From assembly GCA_030725745.1 (NCBI GenBank), contig JANRFH010000013.1, positions 1 through 37,053 of the forward strand: 37,053 nucleotides of DNA. Direction: 5' to 3'. Position numbers and translations under genes: made by a program. Below the pieces are notes generated by a model that saw only the letters and a list, made by a program, of their open reading frames with translations, did no database searches and had not been told where the DNA came from. Below, piece by piece: positions 18,700 through 27,257 of this stretch. The stretch comes from Akkermansiaceae bacterium. GTDB lineage: Bacteria > Verrucomicrobiota > Verrucomicrobiia > Verrucomicrobiales > Akkermansiaceae. Positions within the stretch are counted from its first letter, which is position 1. Every line of letters begins with the position of its first letter.

Positions 18700-20736
18700 T
18701 CAGTTTTGAAATCCGAGGACAGCATTCACTTCCTTGCGCTTCAGGTCGGCGATTTTCGCCTCGATGAAATTGAAACCTTGGGGGACGACATAGCTGAGTT
18801 TGTCTTTTGCAGACCAGCGTTCAGCCGAGGCATAGATGATTGGTACTGAGATAGCGGCAATGATGATCGCGGAGGAAAATACCGGGAGTAGCAAGCGGGC
18901 GGAGATGGAGTTACGGAGGCAGTGATCCTTTTTCCCGAGTAGCGCAATGAACGCGCTGATCAAAATCGATAAGCCCCACAGTCCGAGTATTGGTGCTAAA
19001 GAAAAGTAGAGTGGCTCTGACAACAACTGGTTGCCAAGCAATGGAAAAGTCGTGAGAGCAATGGTAATTCCAATAATGGGAAACAGGCAGCGCCAGTGGG
19101 GAACATGTTCTGCAATGCCAAAAGCACCGAGCCTTTTGCGCATGCGCCAGCGTATGATAAGTGGCGGAACGCTGAGGATAAGCAGAAGAAGAATCATAAA
19201 GTGTATGGCCGGAAAAATGAAGCCCATGGAACTCAAGCCCCGGCTTCTCCCCCCCATCGGAGTTAGCCAGCTGACGGCGTAGATGAAGGCGAAGGGTGCA
19301 ATGACTCCTAGCCCTATGATCCATACCCAGTCCCTTGCGCTGAAGAGTCCTGATAGCCGACGGGCTAGCTTCTCAATCACTGCGGAAGCCCGCAGGCGGA
19401 AGAATAATACGCTCATGGCCGAGAGGAAAAGTAAGAGGAGCAGCATCCAAACAAATATCAGGGATACAAAATCGTAATCGGCAAGGCGCCCGGGTGTGAG
19501 AAGCAAATCATTGATCACAGGTGGGTCAGGGACGGATCTTAACCCCGTCGGCGTAGTAAATGCATGCAGCACCGAACCGCGCCTATCGATAATGTCGTCT
19601 GAGTTTTTTCCACGAATCACCCGCAGATCCTTCAGCTCTTGAAATCTTGCCGAACGGGCATCAAGAAGTTCTGCGAGATCTTCCAGCCCCAGCCGAGCTG
19701 CACCGTGGAGCATTGTGCGGGTAAGGCTATCTGCATTTGCGTTGTACACCATCTCACCAACCAGTGTCGATTTCGGGCTTTTGCTGATCTGCTTTAAAAA
19801 TGCCTCGGAAAGAGCGAAGTCTCGGCGGAAGCCCTCCTCATCGCCTTCCACTGAGTGGAGGTATGCACTGGTGCAGATGACATCGGCGACTTTTAGGAGC
19901 GATATGACTTGGGATGTTTGCATTGCTGAGTAGGTCAAAGCCCGCAGTTTCTCTAACGCAGTGTTCTTTGGAAAAAGTTTCAGCCGCTCTTCCATCATCA
20001 TGGTCTCATAACTATCCAAACGATCTAACGCGGCGGCCTGCGAGATTAGATCCATTGCCTCTGTGAAGGCGGTGACATCGGCAATCTCCCACTCGGTTTC
20101 ATCAGGGATAGGGCGAAGAGCTACGCCATCGCGCATCCTTTCCGGATTTGAGCTTCTGCCGTATGCACTGCTCACTTTGGAGACGGCTTCTTTTCCGATT
20201 CTCCCTGCGGCTATATATGGGAAAAATGAGTTTTCGGGGTCAATACTTGAGGCTGTATCGAGGTAGTCCGGAGGCAGGACTCCGCGCATTTCCGCGTATT
20301 GGTAAGCAAATTCCGAGTAATATGCCGGGTTCTCCGGGGCACTGAGATACAGGGCTTCTTTTTGTTTAAATGCACTCAACGAAGGGTCGCCTAACAAAAG
20401 AAGTTCCCCAGCGGTAAAATGCGTTGAAGGGAATTGGGTGGAGGTGTGATATAAAGAGCTCGAAACACGAATTTCGCGGAAAATATCGGACACCTTTTTC
20501 GCCGAATGATTGGAAACCAATAACGAAACACCGGCGAGGACGTAGAGTATGCCTATCCAGAGATGAGGGTATTTTTTCGCATCCAAAATACTCCAGCGGG
20601 CGATGGCAACTCCGGCATCCGGGTGATAGGAGTCAGCTTTTTCATCCAATATCGCTATGGCGGCGAGCCGTTGCTCCGCATTGTCCGCGAAGGGCTTGGT
20701 TGCGGCATCGATGAGTGGACTGGGTTCCGGGATCAC
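18700..20736 (-). CDS. Large membrane protein of unknown function, paralogue A
   Basis: The 678-residue protein (GTG start) matches no family I can name. It is a clear paralogue of the product at 24291-26468. Its layout is a ~55-residue cytoplasmic start with NAEQRLAAIAIL and HPDAGVAIARW, then one membrane helix at about 59-76. A large helical extracytoplasmic domain spans about 80-415, with GDPS, APENPAYYSEFAYQY and TASSIDPENSFFPYIAAG. About six more helices lie at ~422-446, 471-492, 504-528, 550-567, 580-600 and 614-635. Shared membrane-region motifs are LGVIAPFA, GGR, FPAIHF and IIRWRMRKR. The ENPAYYSE/IDPENSFF part may be a TPR-like fold in which units of a workload are counted, but no catalytic motif is visible. 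It converges with the tRNA and is divergent from the toxin-antitoxin pair. Confidence 0.8.
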   Translation of the reverse strand: MIPEPSPLIDAATKPFADNAEQRLAAIAILDEKADSYHPDAGVAIARWSILDAKKYPHLWIGILYVLAGVSLLVSNHSAKKVSDIFREIRVSSSLYHTSTQFPSTHFTAGELLLLGDPSLSAFKQKEALYLSAPENPAYYSEFAYQYAEMRGVLPPDYLDTASSIDPENSFFPYIAAGRIGKEAVSKVSSAYGRSSNPERMRDGVALRPIPDETEWEIADVTAFTEAMDLISQAAALDRLDSYETMMMEERLKLFPKNTALEKLRALTYSAMQTSQVISLLKVADVICTSAYLHSVEGDEEGFRRDFALSEAFLKQISKSPKSTLVGEMVYNANADSLTRTMLHGAARLGLEDLAELLDARSARFQELKDLRVIRGKNSDDIIDRRGSVLHAFTTPTGLRSVPDPPVINDLLLTPGRLADYDFVSLIFVWMLLLLLFLSAMSVLFFRLRASAVIEKLARRLSGLFSARDWVWIIGLGVIAPFAFIYAVSWLTPMGGRSRGLSSMGFIFPAIHFMILLLLILSVPPLIIRWRMRKRLGAFGIAEHVPHWRCLFPIIGITIALTTFPLLGNQLLSEPLYFSLAPILGLWGLSILISAFIALLGKKDHCLRNSISARLLLPVFSSAIIIAAISVPIIYASAERWSAKDKLSYVVPQGFNFIEAKIADLKRKEVNAVLGFQN

Positions 20737-24290: not shown

Positions 24291-26468
24291 TCAGTTTTCC
24301 ATACCGAGAGCCTCGCGGATCTCCTTGCGGTTCTGGGCGGCGACTCGGAACTCGTATTGTCCGAGATCCGGGGCATCTGGATTGATGCTATTGAGCGTGT
24401 CCTGCGCGAGCCAATGGATCTCCGAGGCTCTGTAAATTGGCAGGACAGCAAGGATCGCAATGATAGCGATAGAGAGGCCGGGGAGGATGGCCATGGACGT
24501 TGCGGCTAGGGAAATTCGGTGCTGTGCCTTTCCAATAAGGCCGTGAAGTGCGTTTCCGAAAACTACAGCTAGCCAGAAGGCCACGGGAGCGGCCAAGCCG
24601 ATCAGGACGGGCGTATCCATACCGAATTTCATGATCGCCGGATAGGCAAATATGGTGAGGACGGTAACACCGAGGAGAGCTGGCGCGGCGGTGAGCGCAG
24701 GAATGCCACGAATGCCCAGTGCCCTAATCCGGCGCAATAACCGCCAGCGGATGATGGCCGCAGGCGCGAGCGATACCCACAGGAGAACAACCACCAGATG
24801 CACGCTCGGGAAAAGGAAGAGGAAATGGCTGACCGACCACTCCCGGCCACCAAGATCGGTGAAGCGGTTCAGTAATAAGATGGCAGCAAGAGGTAAGATG
24901 ACCCCGAGGGAGATCGATAGCAGCCAATCAACAGGGCGTAGAAGCTGGATCAGGCGGGCGGCGGTTTTTCTCAATGAAGCGGGGAAGACGAAACGGAAGA
25001 GGAAAACGGGCAGGGCGAAGATAAGCAGGGAGAGCGCGACAGCTATCAGGCCGATGCGCATGGCGAGGGCATGATCCGCATAGCGTTGGGGTGCGAGATC
25101 TTCTGGGGTGATAGGTGGAGGGGTATCGACCTGACACATGAGCATGGGAAACATGAAACCCGCCAATACAGAGGACTTTTCAGTCACCCAATCGTGGTCG
25201 GACGATGACCGAAGTCTTTTCTGATCCTTGATATCCTGCATGGCTTGGTGTTCATCGCCGAATTGCTTTTCCAATTCGGCCAAGCCAAGCCTCTTCGCCG
25301 CGTAGTAGAAATACTCGGCGGTGTTCGCGACCAACACTGAGTTCACCAGCTCATTGAGCAGACCCACATCCGGATTTCCTAACAAGGCTTCGATAAATTG
25401 CTGGCGCATGTCCACCAGCTTGAGGAATCCCTCTTTGTCTCCGTTGTTAGATAATTCCTGAGCTCTTGCGGAGAGCACGGTGGATACCTTCAGCAGAGAA
25501 AAGCTTCCACCTGCTCGTCCGTAAGTCAATAACAGCGCAGTCACCATCTCCTTGGTTGTATCCGTGTTCCGGAAACAACTCATTCTCTCCCTCATCATGG
25601 TCGTTGAGTAGCTTTGGAAGCCTTTCAACTTGGAGGCTTTTTCGATGAGTTCGAGGGATCTTTCGTAAGCCGCCTGATCATTGACCTTATATTCCCTTTC
25701 CTCAGGATCGGGTGATAGCCTTACGCCTTTTACGATCCGAGGCTTCGGAGAGGAACCGGTTCTCGGTTCCATTTCGATGGTATTGTTTTCCGTATTTCCG
25801 GCGAAGAGATAGAGGAAAAACGAATTCCCGGGGTCGATGCGGGATGCTGTTTCGAGAGCTCCTGGTGGAAGTTCATCGAAGGATCGCATATAATCTAAAG
25901 CATATTCGGAGAAATAGGCGGGATTCTCAGGCTCGCTGAGATGGAGAGCTTCCGAATTCTCGATGCTATTGTAATATTCAACGCTCGGATCACCAAGTAG
26001 CAGCTTTTGATGTTTCGAGAGACCTTTCGGAAGAGTTGCGTCCGAAGCCTCTAAAATCGAAGCGTCGTGAAGTTTCGTAATGAAGACAATGTCATCCCGC
26101 TGCGACACCACCACCGCAATCAGTGCGGCCAAAGCAGCGAGGTAGATAGCGGTCTTCCAAAGAAACGGAAATTTCCTGCAATCGACCGCCTCCCATCGAG
26201 CGATGGTTTCCGCTGCCAACGGGTGATCCGGATCGGCAGTTTCCGAGAGGACGGAGATGGCGGTGAGGCGCTGCTCTGCATTTCCCGAGAGGTGGCTCAC
26301 GGCGGCCTCGACGAGCGAATATGGAGCGCGGGTCGGTGTGCCCCTTGGGTATTTTAAGCCGCTGTCTTGCGTGCGGTTTTCCGGGGTGCTCACGACATGG
26401 AGGATTTTTTGAGCGTGCGTGGAGTTGGGTTGACGCACAGGGAAGCGGCTTGCAAAGCCGCGCTCCAT
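24291..26468 (-). CDS. Large membrane protein of unknown function, paralogue B, with N-terminus from a mobile element
   Basis: This ~725-residue protein is the paralogue of the one at 18700-20736. They share NAEQRL, IARW, LLLGDPS, PENPAYFSEYA, TASRIDPGNSFFLY, LGVILPLA, LGGR, FPSVHL and IIRWRLLRR, in the same order, plus a C-terminal RKE-ALGMEN. One membrane helix lies near residue 110, a large helical extracytoplasmic domain follows, and six or so helices fill the last third. The similarity to paralogue A begins at SLVEAAV, exactly where a 154-bp inverted-repeat element ends. The first ~50 residues (MERGFASRFPV ... RGTPTRAPY) are encoded by the element. I chose ATG 26468 because GGAG stands 6 bases before it; ATG 26480 and GTG 26393 are alternatives. 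It follows lpxA by 15 bp. No enzymatic motif is visible and the function is unknown. Confidence 0.78.
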   Translation of the reverse strand: MERGFASRFPVRQPNSTHAQKILHVVSTPENRTQDSGLKYPRGTPTRAPYSLVEAAVSHLSGNAEQRLTAISVLSETADPDHPLAAETIARWEAVDCRKFPFLWKTAIYLAALAALIAVVVSQRDDIVFITKLHDASILEASDATLPKGLSKHQKLLLGDPSVEYYNSIENSEALHLSEPENPAYFSEYALDYMRSFDELPPGALETASRIDPGNSFFLYLFAGNTENNTIEMEPRTGSSPKPRIVKGVRLSPDPEEREYKVNDQAAYERSLELIEKASKLKGFQSYSTTMMRERMSCFRNTDTTKEMVTALLLTYGRAGGSFSLLKVSTVLSARAQELSNNGDKEGFLKLVDMRQQFIEALLGNPDVGLLNELVNSVLVANTAEYFYYAAKRLGLAELEKQFGDEHQAMQDIKDQKRLRSSSDHDWVTEKSSVLAGFMFPMLMCQVDTPPPITPEDLAPQRYADHALAMRIGLIAVALSLLIFALPVFLFRFVFPASLRKTAARLIQLLRPVDWLLSISLGVILPLAAILLLNRFTDLGGREWSVSHFLFLFPSVHLVVVLLWVSLAPAAIIRWRLLRRIRALGIRGIPALTAAPALLGVTVLTIFAYPAIMKFGMDTPVLIGLAAPVAFWLAVVFGNALHGLIGKAQHRISLAATSMAILPGLSIAIIAILAVLPIYRASEIHWLAQDTLNSINPDAPDLGQYEFRVAAQNRKEIREALGMEN

Positions 26469-26471
26469 ATT
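26318..26471. mobile_element. 154-bp MITE/REP-like element with 14-bp perfect terminal inverted repeats
   Basis: AATATGGAGCGCGG at 26318-26331 is the exact reverse complement of CCGCGCTCCATATT at 26458-26471. An inner hairpin GCGGCTT-GCA-AAGCCGC lies at 26445-26461. A 9-bp direct repeat of the end (GCGCTCCAT) follows at 26472-26480. There is no transposase, so it would be non-autonomous. It sits between the lpxA stop codon and paralogue B and is read through as that protein's N-terminus. I have an impression of similar read-through ORFs in other Verrucomicrobia, which needs a search. Confidence 0.75.
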
Positions 26472-26483
26472 GCGCTCCATGTA

Positions 26484-27257
26484 TCAGCGAGAGACGCCGC
26501 GCTGGGAGTTCTCGATGAAATGGATGAGGTGCTCGACGTGCGCGTTGTTTGCGGCGGAGGTTGCTTTGAGGGAGCCGAGGCTGTTGGCGAGGTTCTGGTC
26601 TTTTTTCAGGAACAGGCGCTTGTAGGCGGATTTGATGTCGCGGATGTCAGTTTCCGAAAAACCCCGGCGCTGCAGACCGACGAGATTCACTCCACGGGTG
26701 CTGGCCGGGTGGCCATCTACGATCATGAAGGGAGGGACGTCCTGGATGACCTTTGCGAGGCCTCCGATGATGGCGTGTTTCCCCACACGACAAAACTGGT
26801 GGACGGCAGCAAAGCCGGAGATGATGGCGTGATCCTCGATGGTGACGTGGCCTGCGATGCCGGTGGAGTTCGAGAGGATGATGTGGTCTCCGAGTTGGCA
26901 GTCGTGGGCGATGTGGGAGTAACAGAGTAAAAGATTGTGCGAGCCGATGCGGGTGGGCAGCTCCTCGAAGGTGCCGCGGTGCACGGTGGAGTTTTCCCGA
27001 AAGACATTGTGATCGCCGACTTCAAGGGCGGTGGGCTCACCGATGTATTTGAGATCCTGCGTTTTCCCGCCGATCGCAGCAAATGGGAAGAACTCGTTGT
27101 TTTTCCCGAAGGTGGAGGTGCCTTCAAGCACAACGTGGGAGTGAAGCACGCAGTCATCGCCGAGGGTCACATTCGCACCAATGGTGCAATATGGCCCGAC
27201 ACGGACGTTCTTTCCGAGCTCGGCCTTGGGAGAAATGATGGCGGTGGGATGAATCAC
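26484..27257 (-). CDS. lpxA: Acyl-[ACP]--UDP-N-acetylglucosamine O-acyltransferase
   Basis: LpxA catalyses the first step of lipid A synthesis, transferring a 3-hydroxyacyl chain from acyl carrier protein to UDP-GlcNAc in the cytoplasm. The 257-residue protein (GTG start at 27257) has the left-handed beta-helix hexapeptide pattern from residue 2 (HPTAIISPKAELGKNVRVGPY) to about 185. Signature segments are GGKTQDLKYIGEPT at 63-76, RENSTVHRGT at 87-96 and YSHIAHDC, where His118 is the expected catalytic base. A helical C-terminal domain follows. Length is normal. It shows that the organism makes lipopolysaccharide or at least lipid A. No lpxD or fabZ lies beside it here. Twelve bases after the stop the inverted-repeat element begins (direct repeat at 26472). 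Confidence 0.96.
   Translation of the reverse strand: MIHPTAIISPKAELGKNVRVGPYCTIGANVTLGDDCVLHSHVVLEGTSTFGKNNEFFPFAAIGGKTQDLKYIGEPTALEVGDHNVFRENSTVHRGTFEELPTRIGSHNLLLCYSHIAHDCQLGDHIILSNSTGIAGHVTIEDHAIISGFAAVHQFCRVGKHAIIGGLAKVIQDVPPFMIVDGHPASTRGVNLVGLQRRGFSETDIRDIKSAYKRLFLKKDQNLANSLGSLKATSAANNAHVEHLIHFIENSQRGVSR

Follow-up and report, generated by a model that had tools for sequence, protein, structure and literature searches.

A 154-bp REPIN lies at the joint between lpxA and a membrane protein gene, here called B, in the 37,053-nt window (the whole stretch of DNA that was analyzed). The repeat probably gave B its start codon and its first ~50 residues, in an opportunistic capture with two apparent sister cases. 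The REPIN consists of two inverted REP hairpins, which an HUH transposase of the RAYT type presumably mobilizes in trans. The interpretation given in the initial annotation, in which a mobile element inserted behind lpxA acts as a portable translation start for B, is partly supported: the element, its anatomy and its repetitive nature were borne out, and the idea that the element is by nature a portable start was not.

The repeat family and the element at the lpxA–B joint

The source genome (3.42 Mb in 57 contigs; Verrucomicrobiales) contains 35 matches to a 163-bp query at E≤0.001, one of full length and 34 partial. The short REP core occurs 33 times in this genome at up to three mismatches, compared with none for a reversed control pattern. 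These counts confirm that the element is real and repetitive, and they support its placement in a repeat family of mobile type; the sequence is present in many copies, though just one is full length. At up to two mismatches, the short core was found in 6 of the 59 genomes searched, source included (27 copies in the source, 48 in G080, 5 in G094, 3 in G008, 2 in G005 and 1 in G004). A looser motif scan of portions of the genomes gave 49 candidates in the source and 64 in its relative G080, the latter count including a few doubtful matches and palindromes scored on both strands.

The REP consists of GGAG followed by GCGGCTTTGCAAGCCGC, or by a GCGGG...CCCGC variant, and its tag is thus not the canonical GTAG. 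A set of 68 distinct cores, selected in view of the two stem variants, has 435 paired cells among its 476 stem cells (in column shuffles, the mean is 419 and the maximum 430). The stems show 13 double changes, compared with a shuffle maximum of 9, and 11 of the 13 are at one pair. Heads-out doublets number 31 (12 from the portions of the source genome examined and 19 from G080), with 18 of them spanning 104–111 bp. The features of REP membership that are present are a tagged palindrome, many copies in few relatives, and inverted doublets at typical spacing.

Ten Y1_Tnp matches were found in the source genome. Two RAYT-like ORFs of 196 and 198 residues, on contigs C30 and C57 respectively, are flanked by GGAG/GGAC-headed palindrome pairs that belong to families other than that of the element. 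A RAYT remnant in G094 (C33; L137:1542–1925), a genome from another family of the order, lies between REPs that have the TGGAGCGCGG head of the element and is a candidate source of the cognate transposase. Both the mobility of the REPIN and the transposase that would mobilize it are what we infer. Because of the repeat copies, the stem palindrome, the doublets and the Y1_Tnp/RAYT-like genes, we call the element a REPIN of a GGAG-tagged REP family.

REPINs, or REP doublets, and their RAYTs have been described by Bertels and Rainey 2011 (PMC3116915) and Nunvar et al. 2010 (PMC2817692). Judged against the accessible parts of these two papers, the present family is similar in its many short tagged palindromes, inverted pairs, typical spacing, large predicted hairpin and RAYT-type genes, and differs in its GGAG tag in place of GTAG and in a long subtype with ~20 extra loop bases. 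Unlike the known systems, no cognate RAYT flanked by exactly the same REP was found among the RAYTs of the source genome, and some copies appear to carry a gene start. Tags vary among known REP families (GTGG and others), according to the accessible text of PMC3733652.

The element has perfect 14-bp ends (AATATGGAGCGCGG at 26318–26331 and CCGCGCTCCATATT at 26458–26471), and an inverted-repeat search extends its arms to 29 nt with 76% complementarity, 96 nt apart (Table 1). It is composed of one long and one short REP. As first annotated, it lies 12 bases (26472–26483) from the lpxA stop codon (26484–26486), and a 9-bp repeat within these bases places GGAG six bases ahead of ATG2 (26468–26466). 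The repeat, GCGCTCCAT at 26472–26480, is a second copy of 26460–26468. A 3-bp GCG is found on the flanks of the REPIN. No consistent target-site duplication was seen among the REP copies inspected by eye, and an Rfam scan of 25900–26900 was without match.

The 9-bp stretch had been described as a duplication of the element end. It is probably a truncated tandem REP head, with native origin as the remaining alternative. Of 113 candidate REPs, 4 have a REP-head fragment of 8 nt or longer within the 24 nt upstream, as do 6 of 1780 control windows; one of the four (C3:149699) could be due to chance. The corresponding numbers are 6 and 18 for fragments of 7 nt, and 9 and 91 for 6 nt.

A second REP-like repeat, GTCGCGATTTCTAAATCGCGGTTC and its variants, is located directly 5′ of the B orthologue, whose start is intact, in two relatives (G080:C44:52944–52967 and G005:C150:34225–34248). 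At up to three mismatches, it has 65 copies in G022, 21 in G005, 19 in the source and 5 in G080 (control, 0).

Table 1. Positions of the features discussed; numbers without a prefix refer to the window.
Feature	Position	Strand	Description
REPIN (REP doublet)	26318–26471	.	154 bp, perfect 14-bp ends
Left REP	26318–26362	+	Long subtype, hairpin loop ~20 bases longer, by comparison with other copies
Right REP	26445–26471	-	Short subtype, core TGGAGCGCGGCTTTGCAAGCCGC at 26445–26467
9-nt REP-head copy	26472–26480	-	External to the REPIN, contains ATG1
Gene B	24291–26480	-	729-aa membrane protein, family without Pfam match
lpxA	26484–27257	-	Gene upstream of B, Acetyltransf_11 and Hexapep domains
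Paralogue A	18700–20736	-	GTG start, without REPIN at start
ATG1	26478–26480	-	First in-frame start of B, 3 nt past the lpxA stop, predicted unpaired
ATG2	26466–26468	-	Start codon within the end of the REPIN, predicted to pair as part of the terminal stem
GGAG	26475–26478	-	Six bases 5′ of ATG2
GTG61	26298–26300	-	First in-frame start past the element, within the conserved core
RAYT-like ORF, C30	L063:1414–2004
RAYT-like ORF, C57	L143:1469–2065

The start of gene B

Residues 53–729 of B align with residues 5–678 of its paralogue A at 33% identity (BLASTP). The similarity had been placed exactly at the end of the element, which is correct to within two codons. Matches to B were obtained in 18 of 39 genomes (source included), and none among the named genomes searched. 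The 31 non-self matches start at residues 49–56 in 15 cases, later in 13 and earlier in 3, and the three earlier ones (residues 15, 40 and 41) all cross in-frame stops. Homologues align only from about residue 50 onward, and conservation of the first ~50 residues, which would have spoken against their addition by the element, was not found. The closest homologues begin with M/V-[IL]-P-x-x-x-P-L-I-x-A or similar, and B resumes with S-L-V-E-A-A directly past the element.

The REPIN fills codons 4–55 of B, with its last base in the first position of codon 55. No start codon lies between the REPIN and the conserved core of B, and the first one to follow, GTG61, is inside that core. Full-length B must start in the REPIN or in the adjacent 9-nt fragment, because there is no other start upstream of the core; ATG1 belongs to the fragment and is external to the REPIN. 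The ~50 residues at the N-terminus of B appear to be repeat-encoded.

The lpxA–B junction has a predicted folding energy of −75.3 kcal/mol (shuffle mean −59.5, z −3.9, with 0 of 200 shuffles as low). In the predicted fold, ATG2 is contained in the 14-bp terminal stem, three of the GGAG bases are in a flanking 5-bp stem, and ATG1 is unpaired. Since the prediction buries ATG2 in the REPIN stem, we favor re-initiation at ATG1 as the simplest reading. Ribosomes ending on lpxA would then re-initiate at ATG1, and coupling of B to the translation of lpxA is possible. We infer the start that is used, this coupling and the production of the proteins.

An alternative is that the REPIN is merely a leader. 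B would start at GTG61, the open frame through the REPIN would be due to chance, and any role of the repeat would be in mRNA structure or stability. Consistent with this, GAGG is located five bases 5′ of GTG61, four other ORFs with a REP near the start (on C2, C9, C17 and C52) have a plausible later ATG, and in G005 and G080 the start of the B orthologue is intact and has another REP-like repeat upstream. Additionally, the authors of PMC3733652, in the accessible part of their text, regard most N-terminal REPs as extragenic and as placed in genes by misannotation. However, a start at GTG61 would lose SLVEAA, which matches the conserved family start, and initiation further downstream in either sister gene would not spare its first membrane segment or signal peptide. 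We consider the leader reading rather unlikely. The question of the start would be moot if B were a decaying, unexpressed duplicate whose open frame is a relic. The presence of a second paralogue, A, and the displacement of B relative to G080 could be read in this way, but B has 729 codons without stops and aligns over its full length to its orthologues with 40–42% identity, which makes decay very improbable.

Origin of the lpxA–B joint

LpxA matches were found in 71 of the 73 genomes of the genus, some of them weak. In the 29 best loci of the relatives (1,500-base flank in 26, shorter in 3), no match to B or A was found downstream of lpxA. The gene order is lpxA–REPIN–B–protease–Ldt–A–aldolase in the source and lpxA–Ldt–B′–aldolase in G080, a REP-rich relative; the genes labeled Ldt, protease and aldolase are what we take them to be from the look of their sequences. 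The native start of B and its first 7–8 codons were recognized as such on neither side of the REPIN, except on the simple-insertion reading below. Judged by these gene orders, the REPIN marks a rearrangement breakpoint or joint. Since it lies at a breakpoint, and B adjoins lpxA in none of the 29 relatives, simple insertion is not the sole route; insertion, insertion with deletion, and a relocation of B that has the REPIN at its joint are all compatible. The initial claim that the insertion replaced the native start is weakened by the unseen native codons and by the gene order of the relatives.

A simple insertion without deletion would require that B already followed lpxA, that its start overlapped the stop codon of lpxA (xTGA), and that the REPIN entered six codons into the gene. 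The element-free frame, xTG-I-H-G-A-P-L-V-E-A, resembles by eye the V-L-P-K-S-H-P-L-I-E-A of the orthologues. A length of 154 bp is 3n+1, which would put the old start out of frame and leave ATG1 and ATG2 as rescue. On this reading, ATGGAGCGC would be native sequence that resembles the REP head either by coincidence or through a target preference. Against this reading, the codon now present at the place of the old start is CTG, the ancestral state is unsupported among the 29 relatives, and the frequency of head fragments of at least 8 nt near REPs, as compared with the control windows, favors a repeat origin of the 9 nt. We regard simple insertion as unlikely.

In the capture that we prefer, B would have lost its native start and first 7–8 codons at the joint with lpxA. 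The frame of B would now pass through the REPIN, and initiation at ATG1 or ATG2 would add the ~50 repeat-encoded residues.

Other genes that appear to start in REPINs

The same type of capture would have taken place at two other junctions, one of which is shared with a related species. The first sister case is a GT2-domain membrane protein of 670 residues (contig C37), with its start inside the REPIN at C37:16862–16970. The start of its G080 orthologue (69% identity) is also inside a REPIN (G080:C22:2246–2354), which is the best match to the source repeat among the 19 G080 doublets, whether the entire element or just its spacer is compared. In both genomes, 18 codons separate the ATG from the repeat edge (by eye), and these codons show little amino-acid conservation between source and G080 except for NPRSI. 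A scan with an alignment of this gene yielded 14 loci. In G065, G010, G081 and L246, the orthologue lacks such a REPIN and has an ATG or GTG start of its own where the upstream gene ends. G022, also without a recognizable REPIN, encodes SPRSIAW where the source and G080 have NPRSIAW, and part of NPRSIAW in the repeat-coincident codons may be native. Another palindrome-like stretch is common to G004 and G022 at the GT2 junction.

The second sister case is a secreted SQHop_cyclase-like protein (contig C3). The REPIN at C3:35680–35808 contains its start and encodes the initial portion of its signal peptide. Seven loci of relatives were inspected, of which L203 is left out of the comparison; the relatives in G004, G080, G005, G084 and G052 have their own start and signal peptide. 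The gene is behind the same upstream gene in G004, G080 and G084, and in another context in L205. The G004 and G084 junctions contain a different palindrome (GTAGCGGCGATCTCCGGTCGCC), whose TAG is the stop codon of the upstream gene.

Neither sister gene has a later start that keeps its first membrane segment or signal peptide intact. Three of the 12 source doublets (those of B, GT2 and the SQHop_cyclase-like gene) appear to be start captures; the gene-by-gene check covered these three and the doublets on C2, C9 and C17. The single capture in G080 is a minimum, taken from a listing of that genome's ORFs that have a REP close to their start.

The possibility that selection shaped REPINs into portable translation starts, each with its ribosome-binding site and start codon, was evaluated with the 31 doublets. 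The presence of ATG and GGAG in the REP end, and the apparent starts of three genes of one genome in REPINs, are in its favor. However, an in-frame ATG is available in 51 of 186 combinations of orientation and exit frame, compared with 45.9 (sd 4.9) in dinucleotide shuffles, and 49 of 300 shuffles reach 51. When GTG and TTG are included, the count is 95 of 186, compared with 99.4 (sd 5.3), and 251 of 300 shuffles reach 95. Usable starts are thus no commoner than in shuffled sequence. The start sites also differ, being in the REP end for B and in the spacer for the other two genes. The shuffle control does not support an evolved portable start, which we consider extremely improbable. Capture looks like chance plus selection: chance would give an ATG start in about one quarter of the orientation and frame combinations, and selection would retain those captures after which the gene is still expressed. 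No special adaptation is required for a repeat to contain a start codon, as shuffles provide one about equally often, and small repeats can rewrite protein starts though they are not specially built for it.

A broader reading is that, in this lineage of Verrucomicrobiales, REPINs in tight junctions repeatedly take over starts, and that the lpxA–B hairpin hides the start signal of the repeat itself such that B is made only by ribosomes coming from lpxA. If true, a selfish repeat would have been turned into a device for translational coupling that also encodes an N-terminus. We put this forward tentatively, as possible but doubtful.

Repeats at the N-termini of ORFs are usually attributed to annotation error. 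The occurrence of REPs within genes, N-termini included, is already published: the accessible text of PMC3733652 reports intragenic GTAG/CGTC REPs and dimers, many of them N-terminal and many in the verrucomicrobium O. terrae. Unlike the misannotation favored there, the repeat-free relatives, the lack of other starts and the one case common to two genomes argue for real capture here. The Rickettsia palindromic elements, as described in the accessible parts of PMC10969869 and PMC3733652, are ~150-bp palindromic repeats read in frame in proteins. The REPIN at the start of B resembles them by description, as a palindromic repeat of about this length in frame, and differs in that it is located at the gene start and carries the start codon, where theirs are spliced into an existing frame. 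Enterobacterial RU/ERIC-type MITE-like repeats form N-terminal parts of proteins, once within a predicted signal sequence (Delihas 2007, PMC2759123); they differ in repeat, host and ends, and start codons are unmentioned in the accessible text. Among the titles and abstract openings surveyed, no description of start codons borne by REPs, REPINs or MITEs was recognized. The accessible parts of PMC3733652, PMC3116915, PMC2817692, PMC2759123 and PMC10969869 do not combine repeat-free relatives with a repeat-borne start found across species. The three loci in one genome are concrete places to test how non-coding mobile repeats turn coding.

Several further ORFs that have a REP close to the N-terminus were rejected as captures. 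Those on C2 (479 residues), C9 (373 residues), C17 (387 residues) and C52 (234 residues) have a plausible later ATG and are leader cases; the repeats on C2, C9 and C17 are doublets, and the later starts were judged by eye. C3:34906–35754 and an ORF on C56 (176 residues) look by eye like doubtful ORFs. A long-subtype REP, possibly an internal insertion, is found in a 300-residue ORF without Pfam match at C49:34784–35686; the 150 nt that follow the repeat contain no start codon.
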